The notes below the pieces were generated by a model. The model made no database searches. It had not been told where the DNA came from and saw only the letters and a list, made by a program, of their open reading frames with translations. This document shows, piece after piece, positions 6,673-24,962 of a DNA stretch of 64,000 nt. The translations under genes and the position numbers were made by a program. The stretch's first letter is position 1. Each line of letters begins with the position of its first letter. The DNA is from Thermanaeromonas sp. C210 (GTDB lineage Bacteria; Bacillota; DSM-521; Neomoorellales; Neomoorellaceae), in the NCBI RefSeq assembly GCF_013167955.1, contig NZ_BLWF01000001.1, positions 434,001 to 498,000 on the forward strand. Reading direction: 5' to 3'.

Positions 6673-6852
6673 ATGGCGGCGGCAGGAAGAGTGGGCAGCA
6701 AGGATCCGGCGGGAGGCTATATAATTAAGGTAATATATACGGGCTCAAGGGAAGAGGGTGAAAGGGCCCTGAAAGAGGCCAGGCGTCACGCCTTCCAGAG
6801 ACTTTGCGCCGCAGGCGGGAAGGGAAAGGTGGAAGCCGGGTGCTGGCCGTAA
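6673..6852 (+). CDS. Small protein upstream of and overlapping the serine recombinase gene
   Basis: A 59-residue frame starting ATG 6673 behind GGGGGAAGTG. It reads MAAAGRVGSKDPAGGYIIKV and continues with YTGSREEGERALKEARRHAFQRL. It overlaps the recombinase start by 13 bases, which suggests translational coupling. I do not recognise a domain; the mid-part is likely a charged helix. It could be a leader peptide for the recombinase. Confidence 0.45.
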   Translation: MAAAGRVGSKDPAGGYIIKVIYTGSREEGERALKEARRHAFQRLCAAGGKGKVEAGCWP

Positions 6853-9781: not shown

Positions 9782-9894
9782 GAGGGTGGGTTTATAAGAG
9801 GTTAGTTTAATGTTGTTGTATATTACCGGTACAATTACACTCGGGGTTGACAGCAAAGGTGTTCTGTGCGAAATTAGAAGCGGGGGGGTATAAC

Positions 9895-12186
9895 ATGGGT
9901 TACTCAATTGTGGGCGAAAGTGTTAAGAGGGTCGATGCCGTGGCGAAGGTTACCGGGAAAGCCAAGTACACCGGTGACTTTCTGGAAAGGGATATGCTGG
10001 TCGGGAAAATCCTGAGAAGCCCGCACGCTCACGCTATTGTTAAGAATATTGATGTGAGCAAAGCCAAGGCCCTACCAGGCGTAGAAGCGGTTTTAACTTA
10101 CCGGGATGTCCCGGCGAACAAGTTTGCTACCGCCGGCCACCCATATGCGCTGGACCCAGCCCACAGGGATAAAGAGGACCGCACCATTTTGACCAACAAA
10201 GCCCGCTTCGTAGGGGATGCCGTTGCCGCCGTGGTGGCCACCGATGAATTGGTGGCGCAGGAAGCCCTAAAATTGATCGAAGTAGAGTACGAAGTATTGG
10301 AACCCCTGCTCACCCCGGAGGCGGCCATGAGGGAAGGCGCCCCTCTGATCCACGAGGATTGCCCCAGAAATATCGTGAGTTCCGCCGGCTATGAAATCGG
10401 CAATATCGAAGAGGCTTTTAAAGAATCCGACTACATTTTTGAAGAAGAATTTGAAACGAGCATCGTACAACACTGCCAGTTAGAAAACCATATATCCATA
10501 GCTTACGTGGATAGCGACGGCCGCATTGTGATAATCACCTCTACGCAGATTCCCCATATTGTCAGGAGGATTGTAGGACAAGCATTGGGCATTCCCTGGG
10601 GAAGGGTGCGCGTTATAAAGCCCGCCGTCGGGGGTGGGTTTGGCAGCAAGCAGGACGTGTGTCTAGAACCCCTGGCCGCAGCCATGACCCTGGCCGTAGG
10701 GGGAAGACCGGTAAAGCTCGAGCTTTCCCGGGAAGAATGCATGATCGATACCCGTACCCGCCATGCCATTAAGTATAAGATTAAGACCGGTGTTGCCAAG
10801 GACGGCAAGTTGGTGGGTATGCACATAACCGCCATCTCCAACACCGGGGCGTATGCCTCCCACGGCCATTCTATCCTTATGGCCGGAGGCTCCAAGTTCA
10901 GAATTCTTTATCCCATGAAGGCCTTAAAATATGACGCCTACACGGTATATACCAACCTGCCTGTGGCTGGTGCCATGCGGGGCTACGGGTCCCCCCAGAT
11001 AACCTATGCGGTGGAGTGCCACTTGGAGAATATAGCGAGAAAATTAAATATGGACCCAATAGAACTACGCCGCAAAAACCTGGTTCAGGTGGGATACGTG
11101 GATCCTCTGAACGGGAATGTGGTCAGGAGCTGCGGTATTCGCGAATGTATTGATAAGGGCAAGGAATTGATCAAGTGGGACGAGAAAAAAGCGCGGTATC
11201 AGAATCAAACGGGCACCAAGCGCCGGGGGGTAGGCATGGCCTGCTTCAGCTATGCCTCCGGCACTTATCCCGCAGGTCAGGAAATTGCGGGAGCCAGGAT
11301 CGTCTTGAATCAGGACGGTTCCGTCCAGTTGCAGCTCGGTGCTACTGAAATAGGGCAGGGAAGCGACACAGTTTTCGCCCAGATGACGGCCGAAATACTG
11401 GGCATTCCCGTAGACATGGTCCATGTTATTTCCACCCAGGATACCGACGTCAGCCCCTTTGACACCGGCGCCTATGCCTCCCGCCAGAGTTACATTACGG
11501 GCATGGCTGTGAAAAAGGCTGCCTTAGAAGTCAAGGGAAAAATCCTGGACTTTGTTTTTAAGATGACGGGTATCCCTGCCCAGGCCCTGGATATTAAAGA
11601 TTGTAATATAGTCTACAAGCATTCGGGAGAAGCGGTCATGCCCCTTGCGGAGGTAGCTTTGCGGACTTACTACGACCTTTCCTCCGCCCACCCCATAACG
11701 AGCGATACTTCCAATAATGCGCGGGTAAACGCCTTTACCTTTGGGGTGACCTTTGCGGAGGTGGAAGTAGACGTCCGTACGGGGCAGATCGAGGTAGTCG
11801 AGATATACAACGTCCACGACTCGGGCAAGATCATTAATCCCCAACTGGCCGAGGGGCAGGTGCACGGCGGTGTCAGCATGGGCATCGGCTATGCCCTTAT
11901 GGAACAGATGTTGTTCGACGAGAAGACGGGGAAACCCCTTAACAACAACCTGCTGGATTATAAGCTGCCCACCATCATGGATATCCCGGAAATAGGGGTG
12001 GCCTTTGTCGAAACCTTTGAACCCACCGGACCTTTCGGCAACAAGTCTTTAGGAGAGCCGCCGGTGATTCCGGTTGCGCCCGCCATTCGTAATGCGGTTT
12101 TGGATGCTACGGGGGTGGCCTTTAACCGGATACCCATGAATCCCCAGCGGGTCTTTGAAAAGTTCAAGGAAGCCGGGTTAATATAG
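9895..12186 (+). CDS. Molybdenum hydroxylase large subunit (xanthine dehydrogenase / aldehyde oxidase family)
   Basis: A 763-residue molybdopterin-cytosine-dinucleotide subunit that hydroxylates a substrate C-H with water. ATG 9895 follows GGGGGGG 5-6 bases upstream; the frame is open to 9847, but a TTGACA there looks more like a promoter box. Family segments are GxxxxRVDAVAKVTGKAKYTGDF at the N-terminus, VGGGFGSKQD at about residue 245, GAMRGYGSPQ at about 360, QLGATEIGQGSD at about 480, and the base-catalyst Glu in SLGEPP near the C-terminus. It is first of three genes encoding the L, M and S subunits. The substrate (purine, aldehyde or N-heterocycle) cannot be read from the sequence; CO is unlikely because the VAYRCSFR active-site loop is absent. 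Confidence 0.9.
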   Translation: MGYSIVGESVKRVDAVAKVTGKAKYTGDFLERDMLVGKILRSPHAHAIVKNIDVSKAKALPGVEAVLTYRDVPANKFATAGHPYALDPAHRDKEDRTILTNKARFVGDAVAAVVATDELVAQEALKLIEVEYEVLEPLLTPEAAMREGAPLIHEDCPRNIVSSAGYEIGNIEEAFKESDYIFEEEFETSIVQHCQLENHISIAYVDSDGRIVIITSTQIPHIVRRIVGQALGIPWGRVRVIKPAVGGGFGSKQDVCLEPLAAAMTLAVGGRPVKLELSREECMIDTRTRHAIKYKIKTGVAKDGKLVGMHITAISNTGAYASHGHSILMAGGSKFRILYPMKALKYDAYTVYTNLPVAGAMRGYGSPQITYAVECHLENIARKLNMDPIELRRKNLVQVGYVDPLNGNVVRSCGIRECIDKGKELIKWDEKKARYQNQTGTKRRGVGMACFSYASGTYPAGQEIAGARIVLNQDGSVQLQLGATEIGQGSDTVFAQMTAEILGIPVDMVHVISTQDTDVSPFDTGAYASRQSYITGMAVKKAALEVKGKILDFVFKMTGIPAQALDIKDCNIVYKHSGEAVMPLAEVALRTYYDLSSAHPITSDTSNNARVNAFTFGVTFAEVEVDVRTGQIEVVEIYNVHDSGKIINPQLAEGQVHGGVSMGIGYALMEQMLFDEKTGKPLNNNLLDYKLPTIMDIPEIGVAFVETFEPTGPFGNKSLGEPPVIPVAPAIRNAVLDATGVAFNRIPMNPQRVFEKFKEAGLI

Positions 12187-12203
12187 GAAGGCGGTGAGGA
12201 TTT

Positions 12204-13088
12204 ATGTATAACATCCAGGGGTATTTCGAGGCGGAGACAGTAAAGGAAGCCGTAGAGCTGCTGGCGGCCAATCCTAACCTAGTGGTTATTGCCGGTGGAA
12301 CGGATGTATTGATAAAGATGCACCACGGTCAGATAGAGAAGGCAGAGTTGCTCAGTATTCGCAAAATAAAGTCCCTGGAGGGGATTGAGAAACTCGAGGA
12401 CGGAACCATTACCATCGGCCCCCTGACCACCTTCACCCAGGTGGCCAACAGCCCCGTAATTAAAGAGAACATCCCCGTCCTGGTGGAGGCGGCCTTATCC
12501 ATGGGCGGACCCCAGATCCGAAACGTGGCCACCATAGGCGGCAATATCTGCAACGGGGCAACCTCGGCCGACAGTGCCTCCACCTTGTTTGCCCTGGACG
12601 CGCGTTTAAGGCTTGAGGGTCCTCAGGGCGAGCGGGTGGTTCCCATCCAGGATTTTTACCTGGGCCCGGGGAAGGTGGATTTGAAGCCGGCGGAACTTCT
12701 TACGGGTATTCTCATTTTCCCTGAGAATTACCAGGGGTATGCCGGGCACTATATTAAGTTCTCCATGCGCAAGGCCATGGACATTGCCACCCTGGGCGTG
12801 GCTGTCCTCTGCAAACTAAAGGAAGGCCGCCTTTTTGAGGACGTGAGGATCGGGCTGGGGGTGGCCGCACCCACGCCCATCAGGTGCCCGGAAGCCGAAG
12901 CCTTTGCGAGGGGTAAGGACGTCTCCCGGGAAACCATAGCGGAGATCGGGAAGTTAGCCGTAAAGGCTACCAGGGCCCGGACCTCCTGGAGGGCCTCTAA
13001 GGAATACAGGGAGCACCTGGTGGAGGAGCTTACCCAGCGGGCCTTGAAGGCGGCGGTTCTTAAGGCGGGGGGTGGGGAAGTTGCTTAG
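12204..13088 (+). CDS. Molybdenum hydroxylase FAD-binding medium subunit
   Basis: A 294-residue CoxM/XdhB-type subunit. The FAD pyrophosphate loop is [16 protein letters not shown] at about residue 28, and the second flavin loop is [20 protein letters not shown] at about 100. It passes electrons from the [2Fe-2S] centres to NAD or another acceptor. ATG 12204 follows GGAAGGCGGTGAGG, and its stop overlaps the small-subunit start. No extra Cys-rich [4Fe-4S] loop, as in 4-hydroxybenzoyl-CoA reductase, is visible. Confidence 0.9.
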
Positions 13089-13551
13089 AAAAATTTCCTT
13101 CACGGTTAACGGGAAACAACAGACTTTAGAAATCGACGTGCGGGAATCGCTGCTGGAGGTTTTGCGCAACCGTTTAGGCTATACCGGAGTAAAAAAGGGC
13201 TGTGAGGTAGGGGAATGCGGGGCTTGCACAGTGCTCGTGGACGGTACCCCCATCGACTCTTGTATATACCTGGGCGTCTGGGCCGACGGGAAGGATATCG
13301 TCACTATTGAAGGCATAGCCAAGGACGGGGAGCTTTCCAAGGTACAGAAGGCCTTTATCGAAGAGGGAGCCGTCCAGTGTGGGTTCTGTACTCCCGGTTA
13401 TATTCTTACGGCCACGGCTCTGGTAGAGAGTGGCAAAAAATATACCAGGGAAGAGCTTAAGCGGGAACTGTCCGGGCACCTGTGCCGGTGCACCGGCTAC
13501 CAAAACATCCTGCGGGCGGTCGAAAAAGCCCTGGCGGATGAGAACAATTAA
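13072..13551 (+). CDS. Molybdenum hydroxylase [2Fe-2S] small subunit
   Basis: A 159-residue subunit with two [2Fe-2S] clusters. The N-terminal plant-type ferredoxin motif is [16 protein letters not shown]...C and the C-terminal motif is QCGFCTPG...[10 protein letters not shown]. Start GTG 13072 (TTG 13081 is possible) overlaps the FAD subunit gene by 17 bases. A strong terminator follows. A stray fragment of a closely related gene lies at 6421-6534, so the cluster, or a relative of it, was once duplicated. Confidence 0.92.
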
Positions 13552-14513: not shown

Positions 14514-15977
14514 TCATGCTTCCTTTTCGCTTTCATAGAGCTCATGGGCAGCTTCATTTAGCCTCAGATAAGAGGCAAAGGCCCTTTGATAGTATCGGCT
14601 GGCCTCCGCGTCAGGTGTGTGGCGGCCGGCTACAGGATTCCAGCCCTTGCGCAGTTCGCTAAAATCACCAAAAATACCTATAGCATACCCGGCCAAATAG
14701 GCCGTTCCCAAAGCGGTATTATGGTGCCGGGGATAGTCGATCTCCCGGCCCAAAACATCACTGAGAATTTGCCGCCAGAGGCGGTTACGGGCTCCCCCGC
14801 CGGTAATCACTACTCGTGTTACTTCCGACGCCGCGCGCAGGTATCCCTGTTTAAACTCATAAGCTATGCCCTCCAACAGGCCGCGGAAAATATGTGGGCG
14901 GCGGTGGAGGGGTGTTAGACCGAAAAGAGTTCCCCGGACCATGGGGGCCGGCCGGGGCAAACGGCGGCCCATGAGATGGGGCAGGAAGTAGAGGCCCTGG
15001 GCGCCGGGGGGAACTAACCCGGCTTCCCGTTCCACCAGGCTATAAAACCGGCTTTCCGGAAGATCAGGGAAGAAGGAGTGCCGGTACCAATTAATGGCCT
15101 GGCCGCACGCCAGGATGTTGGCGCAGAACTCAACAGTGGAAGGCTGATCGCTTATATGAATGGTGCGGGCCGCTTCAACGAGGGGCCGGTGGACGAGGAT
15201 GGCTGTTCCGGTAGTTCCCAGGTAGAGCATCAGTTCTCCTGGCTCCGTTACTCCTGCCGCCAAAAGAGTGGCAAAGGAGTCGCCGGTACCCGTAATAACC
15301 GGAGTACCGGGGGCCAGACCGGTGACGGAAGCCGCCGTCCGCGTTACGGTCCCTGCTACGGCGGTGGCCGGGAGGGGTTCGGGTAACAGTTGGGGGTTTA
15401 ATTGAAGCTCACGGCATAAATCCTTCCGCCACTCCATTCTAGCGGGGTCGAACAGGCCGCCAAATATGTTGGCCGTATCCACATCGGTAGTTTTACATCC
15501 GGTCAGGCGGTAAACGATGTAGCTATGGGGGTTTAAAACGACATCCCCCCTTTCGTAAACCTCGGGTTCGTGTTTTTTCAGCCACAAGAGTTTGGGCAAA
15601 ACCTGTTCCAGGGTGATCTGCATTCCATACTTCTCTTTAAGCTCTCGCAACTCGGTTCCTGCACGGTTGTCGCAATAAAGGAGGGCGGGCCGGAGGGGGA
15701 CACCCTCCGGGTCTAGAAGGCAGAGGGCAGGCACTAACCCGCTTATGCCTATGGCGGCAATTTCACTAGGGTTGACCTCCGCTCGCGCTAACAAGTCCTT
15801 AACCAGAAGGACGAACTCCCCCCACCAGTCTTCCTCCGGGTCCTGTTCCGCCCACCCGGGCTGGGGGTACTTTATACCATGAGAGGTATAACCTGAAGCC
15901 AGGATGTGACCGCTGCTGTTTACCAGCACGGCCTTAAGGCCTAAAGTTCCTATATCCACCCCTAAAAGTACCGGCAA
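14514..15977 (-). CDS. FGGY-family carbohydrate kinase
   Basis: About 487 residues from TTG 15977 on the minus strand, chosen because AAAGGTGG lies 8 bases before it; GTG 15989 has no ribosome binding site. The actin-like ATPase fold shows GVDIGTLGLKAVL at the N-terminus, PGWAEQDPEEDWW (typical of xylulokinases), GTGDSFATLLAAG, and the second domain ADENOSINE-type loop VVITGGGARNRLWRQILSDVLG. It phosphorylates a sugar or related hydroxy compound, and xylulokinase or LsrK-like are both possible. It is last in the ten-gene operon, 18 bases after the dehydrogenase, and would act with the aldolase on the imported substrate. Confidence 0.88.
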   Translation of the reverse strand: MPVLLGVDIGTLGLKAVLVNSSGHILASGYTSHGIKYPQPGWAEQDPEEDWWGEFVLLVKDLLARAEVNPSEIAAIGISGLVPALCLLDPEGVPLRPALLYCDNRAGTELRELKEKYGMQITLEQVLPKLLWLKKHEPEVYERGDVVLNPHSYIVYRLTGCKTTDVDTANIFGGLFDPARMEWRKDLCRELQLNPQLLPEPLPATAVAGTVTRTAASVTGLAPGTPVITGTGDSFATLLAAGVTEPGELMLYLGTTGTAILVHRPLVEAARTIHISDQPSTVEFCANILACGQAINWYRHSFFPDLPESRFYSLVEREAGLVPPGAQGLYFLPHLMGRRLPRPAPMVRGTLFGLTPLHRRPHIFRGLLEGIAYEFKQGYLRAASEVTRVVITGGGARNRLWRQILSDVLGREIDYPRHHNTALGTAYLAGYAIGIFGDFSELRKGWNPVAGRHTPDAEASRYYQRAFASYLRLNEAAHELYESEKEA

Positions 15978-15995
15978 CTCAACCGCCACCTTTGT

Positions 15996-17030
15996 TCAAT
16001 CCGGGAAGGTTAAAACTACCCGGTAGGTATCCGGTGCCATGGCCAGCTTAAAGGCCGTCTCCATATCGGGGAAAGGAACACGGGCACTCACCAGGTCTCC
16101 CACCTCTATCAATCCTCCCGACAGGAGGGCCGTGGCCTGGCGGAAGCTTTCCTTGTCGTGCCGTATGGAGCCCGTAAGGGTAAACTCACTGTAATGGAAA
16201 TCGTTGGGATCGATTTCCAGGGGAACGGCAGGGTGCAGGGACCCATATACTACAAGGGTACCTCCCTTCACCAAAAGCCTTAAGCCCTCTTTCAGGGCCG
16301 GCGCGCCACCTGCCGTGAAAAATACCGCCTCTGCTCCCCTTCCGCAGGTCAGCTCTTTCACAACGGAAGCAAGGTCTTCTTTAAAGGGGTTAACGGCGGC
16401 AATAGCCCCCAGCTGGAGGGCCTTCTCCCTGCGTGAAGGGTCGGGTTCACTCACGATAACCCGTGCCCCCCGGATTTGGGCGAGCTTGAGGTGCAGGAGC
16501 CCCATTACCCCGGCGCCCAGAACTACTACTGTATCTCCCGGGCGCAGGTTTCCCCGGCCGATACTACGAACCACACAGGCGAGGGGCTCGGAGAGAGTGG
16601 CGTGGACCAGGTCCACATTTTGGGCGAGGGGATAGACCTCGTAACCTTTGGCGATGAGGTATTCGGCAAAACCGGCCGGGCCCCAGTAATTGCCGGGGTT
16701 GGACTTTTCTCCCGCGTTAGCGCACATGTGGTCCTGGCCTCGACGGCAAAAATAGCACTCACCGCAACGTATGAGGCTGGCTACGGCGACTTTCTGTCCG
16801 GGTGCCAGCCTTTGGGCGACCCGCGGACCAACCTCAACTACCTCCCCGGCAATTTCGTGACCTCCCAGGAAGGGATAAGCTCCTTCCACACCCTGGTAAA
16901 ACCGTTGTTCCCAGGTGCAGATGCCGCAGGCCCTAACTTTAACAAGCACTTCATCTGGTTCTAACTTCCTTAGCGGAACGTCTTCCAGTTGAATTTTCTG
17001 GGGACCGATCATTACTGCCCTAAGCAACAT
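15996..17030 (-). CDS. Zinc-dependent alcohol dehydrogenase (MDR family)
   Basis: A 344-residue medium-chain dehydrogenase. Catalytic zinc ligands are in CGICTWE and GGHEIAGE, and the structural zinc loop is CGECYFCRRGQDHMC. The Rossmann motif is VVVLGAGVMGLLHLKLAQ. It most resembles sorbitol/threonine-type dehydrogenases that oxidise a secondary alcohol of a polyol or sugar with NAD(P). ATG 17030 follows AAAAGGAGCTGATGG. Position between aldolase and kinase suggests the order oxidation or reduction, phosphorylation, cleavage. The substrate is unknown. Confidence 0.88.
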   Translation of the reverse strand: MLLRAVMIGPQKIQLEDVPLRKLEPDEVLVKVRACGICTWEQRFYQGVEGAYPFLGGHEIAGEVVEVGPRVAQRLAPGQKVAVASLIRCGECYFCRRGQDHMCANAGEKSNPGNYWGPAGFAEYLIAKGYEVYPLAQNVDLVHATLSEPLACVVRSIGRGNLRPGDTVVVLGAGVMGLLHLKLAQIRGARVIVSEPDPSRREKALQLGAIAAVNPFKEDLASVVKELTCGRGAEAVFFTAGGAPALKEGLRLLVKGGTLVVYGSLHPAVPLEIDPNDFHYSEFTLTGSIRHDKESFRQATALLSGGLIEVGDLVSARVPFPDMETAFKLAMAPDTYRVVLTFPD

Positions 17031-17043
17031 CCATCAGCTCCTT

Positions 17044-17823
17044 TTAACTCTCTAGTATGGCCTGGGCTTCCTCCAAGGTAGCCCCCTTGTGGATCAAAGC
17101 GGCCAGGGCTGCTGCCATTTTTTCCGGACGCGGATGGCCCCACACGTTGCGCCCTATAGCCACCCCTGCCGCCCCCTCATCGAGAGCATCTTTGATGGAG
17201 GCCAGGAATGCTTTTACATCATTGGTTTTGGCACCCCCCAAGACCACAACAGGGACAAAGCAGGTTTCGGTTACTGCCCGGAAACCTGGCCGGTAAATGG
17301 TCTTGATGACATCTGCTCCCAGCTCGCACGCGATGCGGGCACCCAGAGCAATGTTATCTAAAGTGCGCAGGGATGGGTCACTATCAAAGCCTCCCGGCGA
17401 TATCTCGCCTATCAGGGGAAGTCCCCAGTTATCGCACCGGCGCGCGATATCGGCCAGTTGCGGTAGGGTTATTTCCTCTACACCCACCCCGGGGCCGGCG
17501 TTAACGATAACGGCATCGGCTCCCAACCGCAGAGCTTCCTCCACACCATAGGCCAGCCGGCTGGCATGGCCCTGTCCCATGGCCGTGGGAGATATGTCCA
17601 GGCGTAGGATTACCCCTAGGCCGGACAGCTCCCGGGCAAACTTTCGGGCCACGCCGTAATTGACAATTACGGCATCCACGCCACTGGCCGCCATTTTTAA
17701 TATGGTCTCTTCGGGTCGTTCCAGACCCGGGAGGGCCCCGGCGTTGGTGCCGTGGTCCAGGGCGACGATGAAGGTCCGTCCATCTCGTTGAAATAAGCGG
17801 TGCCAACGTCGTATCTTATTCAT
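17044..17823 (-). CDS. DhnA/LsrF-type class I aldolase
   Basis: A 259-residue TIM-barrel aldolase. Typical segments are FIVALDHGTNAGALPGLERPEETI at the N-terminus, GADAVIVNAGPGVGVEE, ELGADVIKTIYRPG with the probable Schiff-base Lys, and VVVLGGAKTNDVKAFL, then GAAGVAIGRNVWGHPRPEKMAAAL. The family includes archaeal fructose-bisphosphate aldolase, ADH synthase and LsrF, which acts on phospho-AI-2. The present operon has a kinase and an importer as the lsr operon does, but with a different transporter class. The substrate is unassigned. Confidence 0.88.
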   Translation of the reverse strand: MNKIRRWHRLFQRDGRTFIVALDHGTNAGALPGLERPEETILKMAASGVDAVIVNYGVARKFARELSGLGVILRLDISPTAMGQGHASRLAYGVEEALRLGADAVIVNAGPGVGVEEITLPQLADIARRCDNWGLPLIGEISPGGFDSDPSLRTLDNIALGARIACELGADVIKTIYRPGFRAVTETCFVPVVVLGGAKTNDVKAFLASIKDALDEGAAGVAIGRNVWGHPRPEKMAAALAALIHKGATLEEAQAILES

Positions 17824-17872
17824 TACATATACCCCCTATGAAATTATTCGCCTGGTAAATAGCCCGCTCAGC

Positions 17873-18814
17873 TCAACGTTCTTCTCGTACATAAGGTATT
17901 CCCTGGGAGCGGGGTACAACTGAACGGCCTATCATGAACACCAGAACAACAAGGGTGACCACGTAGGGCAACATTAAGAACAAATGATACGGTAGATCAA
18001 GTCCCATGGCCTGCATCCTTAGCTGAAACGCATCGGTGAAGCCGAAAAGCAAGGTAGCGATAAGGGCGCCCCAGGGGTTGTAGCGGCCGAAAATCACCGC
18101 TGCAAAGGCGATAAAGCCCCTTCCCGCCGTCATGTTATCCATGAAGTACCGCAGTCCTCCCACCGTCAGGGATGCTCCTCCTAGGGATGCCAATACGCAG
18201 CTTAGTATAATGCAGGCGTAACGTACCAGGTAAACATTTATCCCTAGAGTGTCGGCGGCCTGGGGGTGTTCGCCTACGGCCCGGATTTTGAGGCCCCATG
18301 TGGTGTGGAAAAGTACTGCGTAGGTAAGGGGTACCATGAGGAGCCCCAGATAGACTAGGATGTTGTGCTTAAAGAGGACCGTACCGAGGACCGGAATTTG
18401 GTCCAAGACGGGAATGGCCAACTGAGGCAGTCCGGGGGATTCCGGCTGCAAGGGGGTGGCACCCAATAGAATCCGGTAGAGGGTGCTCGTCACTCCTAGG
18501 GCGAAAATGTTCTCTCCTACTGCCGTGACCACCTGGTCGCACCGCAAGGTTACGGTGAAGAAGGCGTGGACAAGGCCCATGACGCCCCCCAGAAGGATGG
18601 CTGCTAACACTCCTACGTAAGCATTGCCGGAATAATAGGCAAAGATGAAGGAGCCGAAAGCACCTATGAGCATCATGGCTTCCAGGGCAATATTAAGTAC
18701 ACCCGTGCGTTCGGAAAAGATGTCTCCGATGGCGGCCAGCAGAAGGGGCGTAGTCATGCGGATACCGGCCACCAGAAAATCCAGGGAACTAATTATTGCT
18801 AATATGGCTGCCAA
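17873..18814 (-). CDS. BMP-type ABC transporter permease (second)
   Basis: A 313-residue permease with about eight to nine transmembrane segments, of the branched-chain/ribose (LivH/RbsC-like) superfamily as in YufQ/NupQ. Marker segments are GVLNIALEAMMLIGAFGSFI near the N-terminus and GLKIRAVGEHPQAADTLGINVY. It overlaps the other permease gene by 26 bases. With the lipoprotein and double ATPase next to it, it forms an importer that in characterised cases carries nucleosides or purine-like compounds. Confidence 0.88.
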   Translation of the reverse strand: MAAILAIISSLDFLVAGIRMTTPLLLAAIGDIFSERTGVLNIALEAMMLIGAFGSFIFAYYSGNAYVGVLAAILLGGVMGLVHAFFTVTLRCDQVVTAVGENIFALGVTSTLYRILLGATPLQPESPGLPQLAIPVLDQIPVLGTVLFKHNILVYLGLLMVPLTYAVLFHTTWGLKIRAVGEHPQAADTLGINVYLVRYACIILSCVLASLGGASLTVGGLRYFMDNMTAGRGFIAFAAVIFGRYNPWGALIATLLFGFTDAFQLRMQAMGLDLPYHLFLMLPYVVTLVVLVFMIGRSVVPRSQGIPYVREER

Positions 18815-19892
18815 TCACTTTCCCTCCCTTAAACCACCGCCGGAAGTATATTTGGCGGACTGCCACAATGCCGATGATGCTTAAAACAGCCAGAGCCTGA
18901 ATAATGTAGACTATGGCCACCGGTACGCCTACGGAAATTTGCATGGAGTTGGCTCCATTGCGGAGGGCTCCAAAGAAGAGGGCGGTCAGGAGGGTACCGA
19001 AAGGGTGCAATCCTCCCAATAGAGCAACAGCAATGGCATCGTAACCGTAGCCTACCATAAAATTCTCCAGCAACCGGTGTTGTACCCCGAGGATTTCCGA
19101 ACTGCCCGCAAAAGAAGCCAGGGCGCCGCTGGCAGCCATGGTAAGGAGCATGACCCGCTTCACTTCTACACCGCCGTAGCGGGCCGCATCCCGGTTGGCT
19201 CCCACGCTCCGGATTTCGAAACCCCAGGTGGTATGCCACAGGACCCAGTAGACCAACCAGGCAAAAACAAAAACCATTAGAAATCCCGCATGGAGAAAAG
19301 TACCCGGGAGGATGATGGGCAGCCGGGCGCTTTGGACTATCGGCGGGCTCTGCGGTGCAGTCTGCCCGGGCTCCATAAGGAAAGTATTGACCGCCAATCC
19401 GACGAGGTATATTGCCACATAGTTCATAAGGATGGTAGTAAGAATTTCGTTAATGCCGCGAGTGGCCTTAAGATATCCGGGAATGAAAGCCCACAGGGCC
19501 CCGGCAACCGTACCGGCCAGCAGAGCCAGGAGCAAGTGGATAACGGCGGGGATATCTAGCGGATAAACTCCGATCCAGGTGGAGGTCAGGGCCGCTACAT
19601 ACAGCTGACCTTCTGCTCCGATGTTGAAAACTCCACCGCGGTAGGCGAGGGTTACAGCTAGGCCGGTAAAGGCCAGGGGAACAAAACGCAAGAGGGTGAA
19701 AGAAAGGCTATCCAGGCTCCCAAAGGAGCCCAGGAACAGTTCCCGGTAAGCTTCTAAAGGGTTTACTCCCTGCTGGGCGATGATAACGGCGGCCACGGCC
19801 AGGCCGAAAAGTATACCCAGTAAGGGCGTCAAGATGGCACTCCAACCTTCACGACAAAAAACTTTAATCCAGGCCGAGAGTTTCTCTGCCAC
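18789..19892 (-). CDS. BMP-type ABC transporter permease (first)
   Basis: A 367-residue permease of the YufP/NupP type. It has an N-terminal extension with one transmembrane helix, then the core with YRGGVFNIGAEGQLYVAAL and GFEIRSVGANRDAARYGGVEVKRV, the family's cytoplasmic coupling region. It ends by overlapping the second permease gene and starts 15 bases after the ATPase gene. It pairs with the second permease as a heterodimer. Confidence 0.88.
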   Translation of the reverse strand: MAEKLSAWIKVFCREGWSAILTPLLGILFGLAVAAVIIAQQGVNPLEAYRELFLGSFGSLDSLSFTLLRFVPLAFTGLAVTLAYRGGVFNIGAEGQLYVAALTSTWIGVYPLDIPAVIHLLLALLAGTVAGALWAFIPGYLKATRGINEILTTILMNYVAIYLVGLAVNTFLMEPGQTAPQSPPIVQSARLPIILPGTFLHAGFLMVFVFAWLVYWVLWHTTWGFEIRSVGANRDAARYGGVEVKRVMLLTMAASGALASFAGSSEILGVQHRLLENFMVGYGYDAIAVALLGGLHPFGTLLTALFFGALRNGANSMQISVGVPVAIVYIIQALAVLSIIGIVAVRQIYFRRWFKGGKVIGSHISNN

Positions 19893-19907
19893 TTTTGTTC
19901 CCTCCCG

Positions 19908-21422
19908 TTAGGCTTGGCGCCGGGAACCGGCCATTAGTAGCCCGATAGTTTCCAGGTCGGCCTGGGCGGCATCCAGGAGACCTACGATTCTTCCCTCATA
20001 AAACACGGCAATGCGGTCGCTGAGCTTCATAATCTCTTCCAGTTCGGTAGAAATATATAAGATGGCCGCACCTCGCTCCCGCTGGGCCAGAATTTGTTGC
20101 TGAACGAATTCAGTAGCCCCGATGTCCAGGCCTCTAGTGGGCTGGACGGCAATAAGGAAATCGGGTTCTCTGCACAGCTCTCGCGCCAGGATAAGTTTTT
20201 GCTGGTTTCCCCCGGAAAGAAGGCGGACTTTGGTTTCGGGACTCGGGGTACGGACACCATACCTGCGGATCAACTCTCTTGCATGGTCGCTGATGACTTT
20301 GTGATCCATCTTGATACCACGGGCAAAAGGATGGCGGTAATATACCCCCAAAAGGGTGTTCTCCTTTATACTGAAATCGAGGATGAGTCCGGTATGCTGC
20401 CGATCTTCAGGAATATGGGCCAGCCCAAGGTCGTATAGGGCTTTGGGCGGAGCATTGGTAACGTCCTTCCCCTTCAGTCGTATTCTACCGCCGGAAGCAC
20501 GCCGTAGGCCGGTGAGCACCTCTGCCAATTCGGTTTGGCCGTTACCGGCTACCCCCGCAATACCCAATATTTCACCCCGACGGAGGCTAAAAGTAACGCC
20601 TTGGAGGGCGGGAAGTCCGCGGTTGTTAAGGGTCTGCAGATTCTCTACCTCCAGGATTACTTCCCCCGGGCTGGACGGGTTCTTGGTCTTTTCCAGCGAT
20701 ATGTCTCGGCCGACCATAAGGCGGGCCAGCATTTGTTTGTCGGCCTTCTTAGTTTCCAGGTTCGCTACAACCCTTCCATCTCTCAGCACCGTTACGCGGT
20801 CGGCAACGGCCATAACTTCGTCCAACTTATGGGTTATAAGGACTACCGAGTGTCCTACGGCTACCAGCTGGCGCAGGACGCGAAAAAGGTCGGATACTTC
20901 GCCCGGAGTAAGTACTGCGGTAGGTTCGTCCAAAATGAGTAAGCGGGCTCTGCGGTATAGCGCCTTAAGAATTTCCACCCGCTGTTGAACTCCTACCGGT
21001 AACTGCCATATCTGCGCGTCCAAATCCACGTGAAGGCCGTACGCGTCCATCAATTCACGTATTTCGGCTGCTATCCTCTTCTTTTCCAGCAACGGTTCCC
21101 GCCGGGAAGGTAGGCCCAGCATGATATTTTCCAGGACGGTAAAGTTATGCACCAGCATAAAGTGTTGGTGCACCATTCCTATACCCAGATTTATAGCGTC
21201 ACGAATGGAGCGGATTTTGACGTCTCGCCCCTGCCAGATAATGCGTCCGGCATCGGGAGTATAGAGGCCGTACACACAGTTCATGAGGGTGGTCTTGCCG
21301 GCCCCGTTTTCCCCTAACAAAGCATGAATTTCCCCCTGGGCGATGTCCAGATCTACGTGATCGTTGGCCTTTACTCCCGGGAATGATTTACAGATACCCC
21401 GTAGCTCCAGCAATGCCGCCAT
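19908..21422 (-). CDS. BMP-type ABC transporter, double ATP-binding subunit
   Basis: A 504-residue fusion of two nucleotide-binding domains. The first has Walker A GENGAGKTT at about residues 37-45 and Walker B LLILDEPTAVL. The second has the usual degenerate GVAGNGQTE loop at about 295, signature LLSGGNQQK and FLIAVQPTRGLDIGA. This layout is typical of sugar and nucleoside importers (YufO, RbsA, MglA). It lies between the lipoprotein and permease genes in the operon. Confidence 0.92.
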   Translation of the reverse strand: MAALLELRGICKSFPGVKANDHVDLDIAQGEIHALLGENGAGKTTLMNCVYGLYTPDAGRIIWQGRDVKIRSIRDAINLGIGMVHQHFMLVHNFTVLENIMLGLPSRREPLLEKKRIAAEIRELMDAYGLHVDLDAQIWQLPVGVQQRVEILKALYRRARLLILDEPTAVLTPGEVSDLFRVLRQLVAVGHSVVLITHKLDEVMAVADRVTVLRDGRVVANLETKKADKQMLARLMVGRDISLEKTKNPSSPGEVILEVENLQTLNNRGLPALQGVTFSLRRGEILGIAGVAGNGQTELAEVLTGLRRASGGRIRLKGKDVTNAPPKALYDLGLAHIPEDRQHTGLILDFSIKENTLLGVYYRHPFARGIKMDHKVISDHARELIRRYGVRTPSPETKVRLLSGGNQQKLILARELCREPDFLIAVQPTRGLDIGATEFVQQQILAQRERGAAILYISTELEEIMKLSDRIAVFYEGRIVGLLDAAQADLETIGLLMAGSRRQA

Positions 21423-21490
21423 AATATACGAATTCCCTCCCGGGCTTAATTGGCGCGGGAGGGGGATTTCCCCCTCCCGAGATGGGTCTT

Positions 21491-22516
21491 CTAAAGACTT
21501 CCTTTCAGCTGGATCTTCCCGGCCAGTATATCTTCGGCTGCTTTAGCCACCTCGTCCTGAACTTCCTTAGGCACCTTATTGCCGTACTTGCCGATGTACT
21601 GGACCTGGTCTTTGAGCCCGAACTGGTATACCTTACCTTCGAATCGCCCTTCTTTAAATTCTTTAACACCCGTAGCAATGAGGAGGGATACCTTCTGCAC
21701 CGCGCTGGTCAAAACGTGATCCGGCGCCTGATCGCGGTAATCACCGGTCCACCCAATAACCATCACGTTCTTCTCTTTGGCCGCTTGGATTACACCTAGG
21801 TTGCCGGCATCGCAGTTGGCTACTATTACGTCAACACCGTTAGCGATTTGGGCCAAGGCGGCCTCTTTAGCTTTGTTAATGTCTTCCCAACTACCGGTAT
21901 AACCGTAAGTTACTGATATATTGGGGTTTACTTTCCTGGCCGCTTCCTCCAGGTTGTCGTATTCCATTTGGCCTGTAGGATCCTTAGTGGCCGTCACGAT
22001 CCCAATCTTATTGGTCTTCGTGGAGCGGGCGGCCACAATCCCCACCAGATATCCTAGTTCACCATATTTAAACTGGAGGGAGGCCAGATTCGGTCCTGTT
22101 ACATTGGTACCGATGCCCGCAAACATTACATCGGGGTATTCGCTGGCCACCTGTTTTAAAGCATCTGAGAATTCAAAGCCATGGCCCAGGATTACGTCGT
22201 AGCCTTTCCGGGCATACTCCCGCATGATCTGAACCTGGTCGTTCTTTTTAACGTTTTCGGTGTAGGCTACTTCAGCTCCCAGGTTTTGCTTAACTTCCAT
22301 TAAACCTTCGTAAGCGCTCTGACTCCAACCGCCGTCATTAATGGAACCCGGGAGCAGAAGGGCTACTTTAAACTGGTCGGATTCCCCTTTTTGTTCTTGG
22401 CCGCCCCCTGTCGGACTCTGCTGTTCGGCAGTCTTACTGCCACCGCAGGCCACCAGCCCGAGGGCCAAAATCGCAACCAGGCCGATGACTAAGGCCTTCT
22501 TGAGCCTTCCTATCAT
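21491..22516 (-). CDS. BMP/PnrA-type substrate-binding lipoprotein
   Basis: 341 residues from ATG 22516, preceded on the minus strand by GGGGAGGT at a slightly long spacing; upstream in-frame ATGs would add a charged segment before the signal peptide. The lipoprotein signal has lipobox LVAC with Cys24, then a Ser/Gly/Gln-rich linker. The binding domain begins FKVALLLPGSINDGGWSQSAYEGL, the BMP signature of PnrA/BmpA and YufN, which bind purine nucleosides in the known cases. Other family members bind AI-2-like or sugar ligands. It is the specificity component of the importer. Confidence 0.9.
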   Translation of the reverse strand: MIGRLKKALVIGLVAILALGLVACGGSKTAEQQSPTGGGQEQKGESDQFKVALLLPGSINDGGWSQSAYEGLMEVKQNLGAEVAYTENVKKNDQVQIMREYARKGYDVILGHGFEFSDALKQVASEYPDVMFAGIGTNVTGPNLASLQFKYGELGYLVGIVAARSTKTNKIGIVTATKDPTGQMEYDNLEEAARKVNPNISVTYGYTGSWEDINKAKEAALAQIANGVDVIVANCDAGNLGVIQAAKEKNVMVIGWTGDYRDQAPDHVLTSAVQKVSLLIATGVKEFKEGRFEGKVYQFGLKDQVQYIGKYGNKVPKEVQDEVAKAAEDILAGKIQLKGSL

Positions 22517-22623
22517 AGTTGTTGGCTTACCTCCCCTATGAAACATTTTTTTGGGCATCGCCTTGTCCACTAACCACGCGCCGCCGGAGACAATGGATTC
22601 CGTTTCTGCCAGGACCTCACCTC

Positions 22624-23262
22624 CTAACAGCCTTTAGTCTCCTCCAGGGTTTTCCTGGATGCCGTTATCAGGGACGCAATACGGGCCACGCGCCGTCCAA
22701 CGGCGCGGACCGCCGAGAGACCTAGTTCATCCTTTTGGGCTCCGGCCTGCTTGAGATCTTGCGACCACACCGCAGCCCCATGATTTTGGAACTTTTCTCC
22801 CCCCACGACAATCATGCCCTCGGCTAAGCAGAAATTTAGAATGGCTCCCAGAACGAATTCCTGCCCTCCGTTACGGCTGCCGCCGACGGCTATGGCACCG
22901 GCCACCTTATATTCCAACGCGCGGGGCACGGCATCGCAGACTTCGGCAAACCGCATGCGGAAGCGATTGAACAGGGCTGCCAGCTGGGAAGGGATGTTCA
23001 TATCGTAAACTGGTGCACCGATGATAACTCCATCGGCGCGGAAGAAGGCCTCTATGATGCTCGCGGCGTCATCTTGATGGATACAACTCCCCGACTTCAA
23101 GCACCGGTCGCAATGAATGCAGGGCTTTATTTCCTTACCTTTAAGGGAAATATACTCGGTCTCCACTCCCGGTACTTGGGCGGCGGCCTTGAGGGCTTCC
23201 TGTACGCAAAAAGCAGTAGCTGCCTGGCGGGGGCTGGCACTTAAACCTAATATTTCCACCAT
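22624..23262 (-). CDS. Iron-sulfur flavoprotein (Isf-like), first paralogue in genome order
   Basis: A 212-residue NADPH-dependent FMN-reductase-fold protein. The flavin phosphate loop is GLSASPRQAAT at residues 6-16. The compact cluster motif is Cys48-x2-Cys51-x2-Cys54-x5-Cys60, the [4Fe-4S] motif of Methanosarcina Isf. A second flavin segment is GVIIGAPVYDMNIPSQL. Isf proteins move electrons between ferredoxin and oxygen species or other acceptors. A gap of about 107 bases separates it from the lipoprotein gene, and only 3 bases separate it from its paralogue. Confidence 0.85.
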   Translation of the reverse strand: MVEILGLSASPRQAATAFCVQEALKAAAQVPGVETEYISLKGKEIKPCIHCDRCLKSGSCIHQDDAASIIEAFFRADGVIIGAPVYDMNIPSQLAALFNRFRMRFAEVCDAVPRALEYKVAGAIAVGGSRNGGQEFVLGAILNFCLAEGMIVVGGEKFQNHGAAVWSQDLKQAGAQKDELGLSAVRAVGRRVARIASLITASRKTLEETKGC

Positions 23263-23265
23263 TGC

Positions 23266-23877
23266 TTATCTCTCCCGGCTGAACTCTTGGATAATGCGTT
23301 GCCCGAGGGTAACACCTTTGTTCCAGGCCAAAGTAAGAATTTCTGGATTATCCTTCACAGGCAGAAAGTCTGTACCGGTGTACAACAGTTGGTCAACCAG
23401 TTCGGCATTTAAGTCGTTAAACAGCAGTTTGATTACTTCTATTTGTTTGGTAAAAGTTTCGGGGCCAAAGCTGCCCGTTACACCTACCATCATGCCCAAC
23501 CGCCGGGAAGTCAGGCGGCTCGGGAAGGTAACTCGTCCGTCGGGGTGGAGGACTACCTCTACGTACCTGTAGCAGCGGTCAATAAACAATTTGGTTTGAG
23601 CCGTAATATCTCCGTAGAAAGTGGGCGTTCCCACCACCAGCCCGCGGCATCCTTCCACCGCGGCATATAGGATTTCCATATCATCTTGTATACAGCAGCT
23701 CGGATGATTGCGGCAATAACCACAATACCGACAAGGAAGAATTTGCAGATCATGAAGATAAAACTTTTGGACCCTTAGTCCCGTTGTCTCTACGCCTTCG
23801 AGGATCTTTTGCACCAGCAAGTCGGTGTTGGCCTTTTTGCGCGGGCTCCCTACCAAGCCTATAACGTCGGCCGTCAT
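23266..23877 (-). CDS. Iron-sulfur flavoprotein (Isf-like), second paralogue
   Basis: A 203-residue flavodoxin-fold protein with GLVGSPRKKANTD at residues 7-19, the same compact motif Cys49-x2-Cys52-x2-Cys55-x5-Cys61, and GLVVGTPTFYGDITAQTKLFIDRCYRY. Its ATGA start overlaps the GntR stop, so it is the first enzyme gene after the regulator. It is clearly related to the next gene but diverged. Two different Isf proteins side by side suggest a heterodimer or two electron-transfer steps in the same pathway. Confidence 0.85.
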   Translation of the reverse strand: MTADVIGLVGSPRKKANTDLLVQKILEGVETTGLRVQKFYLHDLQILPCRYCGYCRNHPSCCIQDDMEILYAAVEGCRGLVVGTPTFYGDITAQTKLFIDRCYRYVEVVLHPDGRVTFPSRLTSRRLGMMVGVTGSFGPETFTKQIEVIKLLFNDLNAELVDQLLYTGTDFLPVKDNPEILTLAWNKGVTLGQRIIQEFSRER

Positions 23878-24629
23878 TTCTGATTCTGACCTCCCCAGTC
23901 CTTATACAAGGTGACTTCAAAGGCATAGCGGTCACTACGGTACCAGGATTCTACGAATTCGACGGGCGTATCGTCGTCCATAAAACTAAGGCGGTTGACG
24001 TAGAGCAGGGGACTGCGACGCGGTACTTGCAGAAGGCGTGCCTGCTCCGTGCTGGCCAGAGCGGCCTCCAGACGCTGCTGGGCACGAAAAAGACGAATAC
24101 CGTAGCGATTTTTCAGTACAAAGTAAAGAGAGTTGTTCTCCAGGTCTTCGGTTTCCAGACCGGGACAGAGATGCTGGGGTAGGCGGGAGATTTGAATAAC
24201 AATAGGTTCTGCATTGGCGTACCGCAGCCGAACAATCCGGTAAACCTTGGCGTTGGGAGGGAGCCTAAGTTTGTTGCGCAGTTCTGGATCAGGTGTCACC
24301 TGCTCAAAACTTAATAATTTAGAAGACGGTATGAACCCTCGTTCCCGCATGTCATCCATAAAACCGGTTAGGGGTGCATAGCTTCGTTCGATCTTGGGCC
24401 GGGAAACAAAAGTACCTTTTCCGTGGACGCGGTAGAGATACCCTTGATTCACCAGTTCGGTTAGGGCATGTCGGGCCGTCATACGGCTCACGCCATAGGC
24501 CTTAGCCAAGGCGGCTTCGGAAGGTACCCGGTCGTCTGGTTTTAAAGCACCGCTCAGGATTTTTTGCTGTAGATCCTGCATTATTTGAAAATAGGCCGGC
24601 GCAGGCCCTTCTACCTTGACAATATTCAC
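23874..24629 (-). CDS. GntR-family regulator with UTRA ligand-binding domain (HutC subfamily)
   Basis: A 251-residue repressor. The N-terminal winged helix (residues about 12-75) has the typical YFQIMQDLQQKILSGALKPDDRVPSEAALAKAYGVSRMTARHAL. The C-terminal UTRA domain runs from about 95 and senses a small phosphorylated or free metabolite. GTG 24629 follows AGGAGGTAAGCA. It is the first gene of the ten-gene minus-strand operon and overlaps the next gene by 4 bases. The CTAG-rich palindrome just upstream is a probable operator, so autoregulation by a pathway intermediate is likely. Confidence 0.9.
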   Translation of the reverse strand: MNIVKVEGPAPAYFQIMQDLQQKILSGALKPDDRVPSEAALAKAYGVSRMTARHALTELVNQGYLYRVHGKGTFVSRPKIERSYAPLTGFMDDMRERGFIPSSKLLSFEQVTPDPELRNKLRLPPNAKVYRIVRLRYANAEPIVIQISRLPQHLCPGLETEDLENNSLYFVLKNRYGIRLFRAQQRLEAALASTEQARLLQVPRRSPLLYVNRLSFMDDDTPVEFVESWYRSDRYAFEVTLYKDWGGQNQK

Positions 24630-24646
24630 TGCTTACCTCCTAGTCA

Positions 24647-24662
24647 TCTAGACGTGCCTAGA
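24647..24662 (-). promoter_or_regulatory. Probable GntR operator
   Basis: TCTAGACGTGCCTAGA has inverted arms TCTAG/CTAGA and also contains a direct repeat of CTAGAC that continues to 24663. It lies 17 bases upstream of the regulator's start codon. Confidence 0.5.
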
Positions 24663-24939
24663 CAGGTATATACAACAGTTAGTCTTATTTTAAGTTCTAC
24701 GGAAGAAGGCTGGCAAGTGGATTGTCGGATTGTAATTCTTAAAATAATGGTATTACATGTGGTGCAAGTGCATATTCTTATTTAACTTCAGCCGCAACTA
24801 TGTTGTCTTCATTATATCGGAATTCGGACCTTATAGATAAGTGCTAGAGCACCCATTCACTAACTCGCCGCACGTAGTTAGAAAAGCCCCCAGGTGAAAC
24901 CTGCCTGAAGAGTTGCCGCCTGCAACCCTGCGAATAAAA
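24663..24939. other. Intergenic between GntR and citrate synthase genes
   Basis: About 275 bases, AT-richer than the surroundings. It should hold the promoter of the minus-strand ten-gene operon, but I cannot fix its boxes. No gene is supported. Confidence 0.45.
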
Positions 24940-24962
24940 AGGGGTGGCAGAAAACCACCCCT
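24940..24962 (-). terminator. Intrinsic terminator of the citrate synthase gene
   Basis: On the minus strand AGGGGTGG pairs with CCACCCCT around a 7-base loop and is followed by TTTTTATT. Confidence 0.85.

Follow-up and report, generated by a model that had tools for sequence, protein, structure and literature searches.

A co-inherited ten-gene operon of Thermanaeromonas sp. C210 with two Isf-type flavoproteins, a candidate catabolic unit for a pteridine-like heterocycle

Which compound would be taken apart by an operon that combines a nucleoside-type importer with two flavoproteins, an aldolase, a dehydrogenase and a kinase? The question arises from the window, a stretch of 64,000 nucleotides of contig NZ_BLWF01000001.1 of Thermanaeromonas sp. 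C210 that was analysed as a whole. Ten minus-strand ORFs run head-to-tail from 24629 down to 14514, with no additional gene among them. A previous, sequence-only reading had described the genes as closely packed, and the gaps agree with this: from gntR to the kinase they measure -4, 3, 53, 68, 15, -26, 49, 13 and 6 nt, thus spanning -26 to 68 nt. The identities that it had assigned (GntR/UTRA regulator, two Isf proteins, BMP importer, aldolase, zinc dehydrogenase and FGGY kinase) were also supported by the Pfam domains and by the sequence motifs.

The first gene (23874..24629; this and all other operon features are on the minus strand) encodes the GntR/UTRA regulator (UTRA 2e-45, GntR 3e-20), and its orthologues occupy the same first position in the operons L011, L012, L013 and L211. 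This protein is probably the autorepressor of the operon. A putative GntR operator, GTATATACCTGTCTAGGCACGTCTA, lies at 24649..24673. Five operons of the same type share GTATATAC at approximately 28-46 nt ahead of the gntR start, and the extended pattern occurs nowhere else in the genome. Immediately upstream of this site is a putative promoter (TTGCCA-18-TAAAAT, 24687..24716), the best match (10/12) of a scan that overall gave no more matches than chance. A putative intrinsic terminator (24940..24962), with a 9-pair stem and a T run, from a scan whose count was near chance, would separate the operon from the upstream citrate synthase gene. On the other side, and convergent with the operon, is the XdhABC xanthine dehydrogenase operon (9847..13551, plus strand), identified by its domains and by the scores of XdhA (1284 bits, cut-off 916) and XdhB (445 bits, cut-off 287). 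The two operons are possibly related, and XDH-like genes are present near the operon in genome G130 as well. Since this adjacency is absent in the neighbourhoods of the three relatives L011-L013, we do not claim XdhABC as a member of the operon.

Do the ten genes belong together? A conserved block across genera had been set beforehand as the test of a pathway, and such a block was found. Orthologous runs in the same order are present in three relatives (L011, L012 and L013), with approximately 67-84% identity where the genes are present, and two further genomes have all ten genes in this order, one of them from another family (L211, in G130). The kinase is missing from the operon in G014, and the kinase and both Isf genes are missing in G011; both genomes carry kinase and IsfA paralogues in a sister cluster. 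We then placed the aldolase in a sample of 87 aligned aldolases, 23 of which form its clade (support 100/98) while 64 fall outside. In the neighbourhoods of the clade, the dehydrogenase was found in 22 of the 23, the kinase in 19, an IsfA-like protein in 18 (15 at 35% identity or more), a RibD_C protein in 6, and either an IsfA-like or a RibD_C protein in 21. In the reverse search from IsfA over 398 genomes, all 12 orthologues, a set bounded by a drop in score from 252 to 154 bits, were beside the aldolase and dehydrogenase. These 12 orthologues and the neighbour counts of the clade establish that the block travels together. Thus, the ten genes of this anaerobic-type bacterium are inherited together. 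Their aldolase-dehydrogenase-kinase core also recurs in unrelated anaerobes, accompanied by IsfA or, in some clusters, by RibD-type reductases. The proposal that the operon is one conserved catabolic-type unit is therefore borne out by the co-occurring neighbourhoods. The genomes with IsfA span only three families.

The importer gives the first indication of the substrate. It consists of a BMP-type substrate-binding lipoprotein (21491..22570; Bmp 1e-60), whose lipobox Cys42 was read from the sequence, a two-domain ABC ATPase (19908..21422; ABC_tran 4e-50, two stretches; its nearest NCBIfam model, ABC_ATP_B6, scores under its cut-off) and two permeases, the first at 18789..19892 (BPD_transp_2 8e-44) and the second, with a TTG start, at 17873..18814 (BPD_transp_2 6e-36). 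In the fold search, ranks 1-22 of the binding protein were all members of the BMP family. The protein shares its fold, aromatic sandwich and transporter make-up with the BMP/PnrA importers (PnrA of T. pallidum, BmpA and BmpD of B. burgdorferi and Lbp of C. thermocellum), and the pocket alignment shows that the base-sandwiching aromatics are kept, with Trp/Trp in place of Phe/Phe at BmpA positions 27 and 176. However, the ribose-binding residues Asp98, Asp225 and Lys242 of the nucleoside pocket of BmpA (PMC13325309) are replaced by Gly, Thr and Gln in the window protein and in three orthologues, and in the window protein Phe151 has become Glu and Val224 has become Trp. The nucleoside-type label thus holds for the family, while an ordinary nucleoside is unlikely as the substrate because the ribose-binding residues are gone. 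This bears directly on the possibility that the operon deals with the ribose of a purine nucleoside, whether ordinary or modified, as its importer family and the XdhABC and purine clusters nearby would suggest. Apart from the altered pocket, there is no nucleoside phosphorylase or hydrolase inside the ten-gene operon, and the combination of a zinc dehydrogenase with a DhnA aldolase is not required in known ribose use, so that we regard purine nucleoside catabolism as improbable.

The three enzymes of the core would act on a hydroxylated chain. The DhnA-type class I aldolase (17044..17823; DeoC 2e-27) retains the Schiff-base Lys174 and Asp23, and the corresponding residues (K184 and D33 in MJ0400 numbering) are invariant across 87/87 aligned aldolases. 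It had been called LsrF-like; the DhnA family stands, but the protein is nearer to MJ0400/ADH synthase (6e-59) than to LsrF (3e-35). At the position of MJ0400 Tyr153 and FBP aldolase Tyr146 the window type has Ser, most relatives have Val or Leu and a few have Tyr. Since the catalytic Tyr is replaced, the enzyme is not an FBP aldolase or an ADH synthase in the strict sense. We also considered the loss of this Tyr as a mark of special chemistry and dropped the idea, because Val or Leu at this position is general in the aldolase group. The medium-chain dehydrogenase (15996..17030; ADH_zinc_N 5e-25, ADH_N 5e-24) is zinc-dependent and Tdh/IolM-like, with the zinc motif CX2CX2CX7C at C89-C103; the IolM and tdh models score below their cut-offs. 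The FGGY kinase (14514..15989; FGGY_N 9e-47, FGGY_C 3e-25) carries a catalytic Asp237 that is invariant in 7 aligned kinases, and its best NCBIfam model is XylB, at 328.5 bits and under the xylulokinase cut-off of 380.25.

The presence of an ABC importer, an FGGY kinase and a DhnA-family aldolase in a single operon recalls the lsr operon (LsrACDB, LsrK, LsrF, LsrG and LsrR) for the uptake and breakdown of AI-2, a parallel which had been drawn previously. It does not hold. The window operon has a BMP-type binding protein in place of LsrB, which appeared only at rank 44 of the fold search, it has a GntR/UTRA regulator, LsrG is not among its ten genes, and it adds the zinc dehydrogenase and the two Isf flavoproteins. 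Moreover, the kinase, nearer to xylulokinase, scores 157.6 bits with the AI-2 kinase model LsrK, whose cut-off is 528, and the aldolase, nearer to MJ0400, reaches 134.6 bits against 297 for LsrF. On the scores of importer, kinase and aldolase, the AI-2/lsr parallel was rejected. More generally, a dehydrogenase, a kinase and an aldolase make up a classical polyol route, and aldolase-dehydrogenase pairs also exist outside the clade, where transporters of different kinds accompany them. The operon could then serve a sugar, a deoxy-sugar or an AI-2-like polyol, with the Isf proteins merely protecting the cell or transferring electrons. This appears quite unlikely: besides the remote match to the AI-2 receptor, IsfA is almost restricted to the aldolase clade (18/23 versus 1/64 neighbourhoods outside it), and 0/12 of its orthologues are away from that clade.

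What could the flavoproteins contribute? IsfA (23266..23877; FMN_red 8e-19) and IsfB (22624..23262; FMN_red 5e-25) are flavodoxin-fold FMN reductases with a CX2CX2CX5C motif, formed by C49, C52, C55 and C61 in IsfA and by C48, C51, C54 and C60 in IsfB. The four motif Cys of IsfA are invariant across the 12 orthologues, and its AF2 model (pLDDT 92.8) matched a flavodoxin/azoreductase fold in the fold search. Both proteins thus have the flavodoxin fold and the compact CX2CX2CX4-7C motif of the methanogen Isf family, and from this motif each would be expected to hold a [4Fe-4S] cluster. They differ from that family in being conserved in a carbon catabolic operon. The closest solved chain to IsfB by sequence is a remote one (4e-8), the flavone reductase FLR (PDB 7d38), which keeps the four aligned Cys and belongs to the same flavodoxin-fold family. 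According to the excerpts of PMC7862272, FLR is an ene-reductase of gut clostridia that starts the catabolism of flavones, a reductive entry into the anaerobic breakdown of a heterocycle, and it has an extra C-terminal substrate lobe; these excerpts do not contain the term "iron-sulfur" and mention no importer/kinase/aldolase operon alongside the enzyme. The sequence-only reading had suggested a reductive step before phosphorylation and aldol cleavage, and the flavone-reductase relative, together with the RibD_C reductases in the same cluster clade, makes a ring-reduction step more plausible.

The nature of the ring is suggested by sister clusters, which contain FolB, two MCH-like proteins, a guanine-deaminase-like amidohydrolase and FeADH, as well as RibD-type reductases and xanthine dehydrogenases. 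This link to pteridine and purine chemistry is new with respect to the previous reading. It comes from the sister clusters, the phylogenetic profile and the neighbours and not from the window operon's own genes: enzymes of the pteridine ring are present in the sister clusters and absent from the operon, inside which there are no FolB, MCH, deaminase or XDH genes. The FolB copies keep the catalytic Glu22 and Lys100 of dihydroneopterin aldolase and differ from it in their catabolic-type neighbourhood and in the pterin-anchoring Glu74, which is Gln in 6/6 domains. MCH was found in 8/9 genomes with IsfA versus 17/389 others (Fisher 6e-10, uncorrected for kinship). A role for MCH in a methanopterin C1 pathway was rejected for the window's genome, where MCH is present and FTR was not found. 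A second type of MCH, whose neighbours resembled Fwd/Ftr subunits when inspected by eye, exists in genomes elsewhere in the phylum (L162).

Two other heterocycles have to be weighed here. The shared theme may be purine instead of pterin, as purine catabolic clusters also hold BMP importers and IsfB-like proteins; in the same genome, IsfB paralogues are encoded together with BMP importers in clusters of the purine type (L036 and L037), and the anchor Gln of FolB would fit a 2-oxo purine or lumazine. IsfB-type proteins could then carry electrons in the breakdown of xanthine, urate or guanine, with the aldolase module serving a sugar-like conjugate of the base. Free bases, however, lack a carbon chain on which a kinase and an aldolase could work, and we give purine base catabolism very little probability. 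Somewhat better placed, while still unlikely, is a heterocycle that carries a ribityl or ribosyl group, for which riboflavin, a deazaflavin, ribityl-lumazine and a ring-opened nucleoside are candidates. Isf or RibD_C would either produce the ribityl compound or reduce it, and the dehydrogenase, kinase and aldolase would cut its ribityl chain directly into DHAP and a two-carbon aldehyde on the ring nitrogen. Such chemistry needs no unusual cleavage, RibD_C, of the ribosylaminopyrimidine reductase family, is present in the six clade clusters, and the riboflavin-binding BMP-family protein RfuA (4iil) is among the nearest folds to the binding protein. Yet RfuA is just 19% identical over the aligned stretch, and the FolB and MCH of the sister clusters are members of families whose substrates are C6-substituted or reduced pterins, not ribityl rings.

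Taking these results together, we tentatively favour, at a little under an even chance, a catabolic unit that is induced by its substrate, a flat N-heterocycle. The likeliest ring is a pteridine, either pterin or lumazine, with a short hydroxylated chain of the neopterin or monapterin kind. Both the substrate and the order of the steps are what we infer from the gene content. The BMP lipoprotein would stack the ring between its two Trp, and the ABC transporter would bring the substrate in. IsfA and IsfB would reduce the ring, the zinc dehydrogenase would form a ketone from one of the secondary hydroxyls on the side chain, the FGGY kinase would phosphorylate the terminal hydroxyl and the Schiff-base aldolase would cut off a triose phosphate. 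With a neopterin-type chain this product would be dihydroxyacetone phosphate, and the reduced ring would be needed as the leaving group. The remaining ring might be exported, or be processed by enzymes of the xanthine-dehydrogenase, deaminase and MCH types from other loci. The GntR/UTRA protein would repress its own operon until released by binding of the substrate or of an intermediate.

Carried further, this scheme would amount to an undescribed anaerobic pathway for feeding on pterins, which are shed by animals and microbes: Isf proteins would reduce the ring, the aldolase would release the oxidised, phosphorylated chain as DHAP by a retro-Mannich reaction with the reduced ring leaving, and ring opening, in the sister clusters, would fall to MCH-type cyclohydrolases that were drawn from one-carbon metabolism. 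We consider this complete version possible but doubtful. Full-text literature searches (pterin catabolism, MCH in purine contexts, Isf with pterin) returned no description of the route and no anaerobic breakdown pathway for pterin side chains. A known bacterial pterin deaminase works in folate breakdown (PMC9513972); this aerobic folate/pterin breakdown (Arad3529; Variovorax F1) resembles the sister clusters in using an amidohydrolase-type deamination of the pterin ring, and differs in that no import/kinase/aldolase route for the side chain is described. If true, the pathway would give a role to two Isf-type flavoproteins of unknown function, account for the MCH and FolB homologues in bacterial catabolic clusters and yield a concrete, testable set of enzymes. 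Even with the wrong ring, the route would be new, as a conserved module of reductive catabolism whose BMP importer has lost the recognition of ribose. Clusters of a similar kind are also present in gut-type Oscillospiraceae and Lachnospiraceae.

The operon under study comprises ten head-to-tail ORFs on the minus strand (24629 to 14514), separated by gaps of -26 to 68 nt. Pfam and NCBIfam assignments give, in order, a GntR/UTRA regulator, two FMN_red flavoproteins (IsfA and IsfB), both carrying a CX2CX2CX5C motif, a BMP binding lipoprotein, a double ABC ATPase, two permeases, a DhnA-type aldolase, a zinc dehydrogenase and an FGGY kinase. Pattern scans placed a promoter-like site at the operon start (24716-24687, minus strand) and, at 24962-24940 on the minus strand, a stem resembling a terminator for the citrate synthase gene upstream; note that both calls rest on position, because both whole scans performed no better than chance. 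A putative operator (24649-24673, minus strand) was recognised at the operon start by conservation before gntR. Its core, GTATATAC, precedes gntR in all five operons of the window type, including one from another family, where the core sits within a perfect palindrome, and the extended pattern occurs once genome-wide in the window's genome.

A search of 61 related genomes found the nearest aldolases, at 76-79% identity, in three relatives, G007, G014 and G011, each inside an orthologous operon. The G007 operon has all ten genes, that of G014 lacks the kinase, and that of G011 lacks the kinase and both Isf genes. Besides this operon, G014 and G011 each have a paralogous cluster that again encodes an aldolase, a dehydrogenase, a kinase and an IsfA. 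This pairing suggests related substrates for the two clusters and possibly shared enzymes. In G007, an additional BMP binding-protein gene (L011:1367-2413) lies divergent from the operon.

Scanning the aldolase alignment against 84,980 species genomes yielded 80 loci. In a tree of 87 aldolases the window protein fell within a clade of 23 (support 100/98), and neighbours were counted up to 9 kb from each aldolase. These genes were called by simple ORF rules and named by similarity to window or sister-cluster proteins, with Pfam/NCBIfam on selected members; many of the loci come from metagenome-assembled genomes. The dehydrogenase accompanied 22/23 clade aldolases, the FGGY kinase 19/23 and an IsfA-like protein 18/23 (15 at 35% identity or more). 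RibD_C was found near six, and one or other of IsfA-like and RibD_C near 21; outside the clade, each occurred near 1/64. As a guard against finding only what was sought, we ran the reverse test with an IsfA profile on 398 genomes of the phylum. Twelve matches scored at least 252 bits (next best, 154); aldolase and dehydrogenase adjoined IsfA in all twelve, and the kinase was near eleven, the exception being the kinase-less G014 operon. One of the twelve loci (L211, in G130 of another family) has the window's full order GntR-IsfA-IsfB-BMP-ATPase-P1-P2-aldolase-dehydrogenase-kinase, its kinase being detected by tblastn at the stretch edge. The neighbourhood search, the reverse test and the G130 order show a conserved block across genera, which the sequence-only reading had named as support for a pathway, and the operon is well supported as a conserved, co-inherited catabolic-type unit.

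In nucleoside-binding BMP proteins, Phe27 and Phe176 stack the base, and Asp98, Asp225 and Lys242 hold the ribose (PMC13325309; compare PMC7093131). We transferred these residues (BmpA numbering) to the window protein by alignment. Both stacking positions are Trp, whereas Gly, Thr and Gln replace the ribose-holding Asp98, Asp225 and Lys242 in this protein and its three orthologues; elsewhere in the pocket, Glu stands in for Phe151 and Trp for Val224. The fold is also that of the nucleoside binders: with the predicted structure (mean pLDDT 85), ranks 1-22 of a fold search were only BMP-family proteins, including guanosine-, adenosine- and uridine-bound proteins, AtzT and riboflavin-bound RfuA, with LsrB at rank 44. 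The simplest reading of alignment and model is that the ligand would be a flat ring without ribose. A heterocyclic substrate, rather than a plain sugar, AI-2 or an ordinary nucleoside, is likely.

The IsfA model (pLDDT 92.8) has a flavodoxin/azoreductase fold. For IsfB, sequence comparison with solved structures gives flavone reductase as the best match (7d38, 4e-8), an FMN ene-reductase that starts flavone catabolism in gut clostridia (PMC7862272). Since flavone reductase has four aligned Cys as well, the motif by itself is not proof of an iron-sulfur cluster.

RibD_C-type reductases lie beside the aldolase core in six clade loci (L049, L050, L051, L052, L053 and L058), of which three lack an IsfA-like protein. 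In L049-L051 two RibD_C copies flank the aldolase-dehydrogenase-kinase genes, and L050 also has a xanthine/uracil permease.

We propose that the substrate would be imported, reduced in its ring, oxidised at a secondary hydroxyl, phosphorylated at the terminal hydroxyl and cleaved through a Schiff base to give a triose phosphate. Each step corresponds to what its family of enzymes does elsewhere; the step order and the substrate we infer. Our best single guess, a tentative one, is a pteridine with a hydroxylated chain. With a neopterin-type chain, the keto-phosphate would be DHAP attached to ring C6 and the reduced ring would be needed as leaving group, which would explain the Isf or RibD_C reductases in nearly every clade cluster. 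The main rival is a ribityl chain, which the same enzymes would cut without that reduced-ring requirement.

Bearing on the pteridine reading, the paralogous cluster of G014 and G011 also holds a methenyl-H4MPT cyclohydrolase homologue (MCH; E 5e-78) that passes the methanopterin-cyclohydrolase cut-off, and with it a further MCH-like protein. The cluster's other additions are FolB, an iron alcohol dehydrogenase, two extra zinc dehydrogenases and an amidohydrolase of the guanine/8-oxoguanine/5'-deoxyadenosine deaminase group. FolB was found in five loci of catabolic-type clusters (L014:3389-3796, L021, L056, L057 and L118), L056 having two domains in tandem. All six domains keep the catalytic Glu22 and Lys100, and in all six the pterin-anchoring Glu74 (S. 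aureus FolB) is Gln. In the T-fold family, Glu matches the 2-amino group of a pterin ring, and Gln, the residue in urate oxidase, matches a 2-oxo ring. Because the anchoring Gln would suit a 2-oxo ring, the FolB substrate in these sister clusters may be a deaminated pterin.

The window's genome has a single MCH (G000:C1:647252-648196; L038, L129), in an operon ordered GntR-IsfB-ABC/BMP-deacetylase-like-MCH-cytosine-deaminase-like; a search of this genome for FTR found none. MCH occurs in 25/398 genomes of the phylum and in 8/9 IsfA genomes (Fisher 6e-10, which overstates independence because the nine belong to three families). In L046, L057, L167, L169-L172 and L174 it belongs to a recurring gene block made up of a short-chain dehydrogenase, MCH and the TPP-dependent E1/E2 enzymes E1alpha, E1beta and E2, often with a second MCH; IsfB and a BMP importer join it in some loci. 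The block appears suited to cleaving an acetoin-like side chain, possibly that of biopterin, in a TPP-dependent reaction. MCH also occurs with xanthine-dehydrogenase-like proteins (L118, L174).

Finally, a complete XdhABC xanthine dehydrogenase operon (9847-13551, plus strand; XdhA and XdhB above NCBIfam cut-offs) is convergent with the studied operon. A purine-type cluster elsewhere in the genome (L036, L037; G000:C1:110001-150000) holds two IsfB paralogues, BMP importers, amidohydrolases and molybdenum hydroxylases. A second aldolase-FGGY kinase-dehydrogenase triad (L019; G000:C2:186989-187762), outside the window's aldolase clade, adjoins PdxA and a DUF1537-type kinase gene; in two relatives (L017, L018) such a triad adjoins TRAP transporter genes and a URO-D-family gene. 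A large serine recombinase (Resolvase, Recombinase, zinc ribbon; 6804-8345, plus strand) lies a few kb from the operon. PucR-type regulators are frequent controllers of purine catabolism, and one (GGDEF-like plus PucR HTH) is encoded at 30545-31738 on the minus strand.
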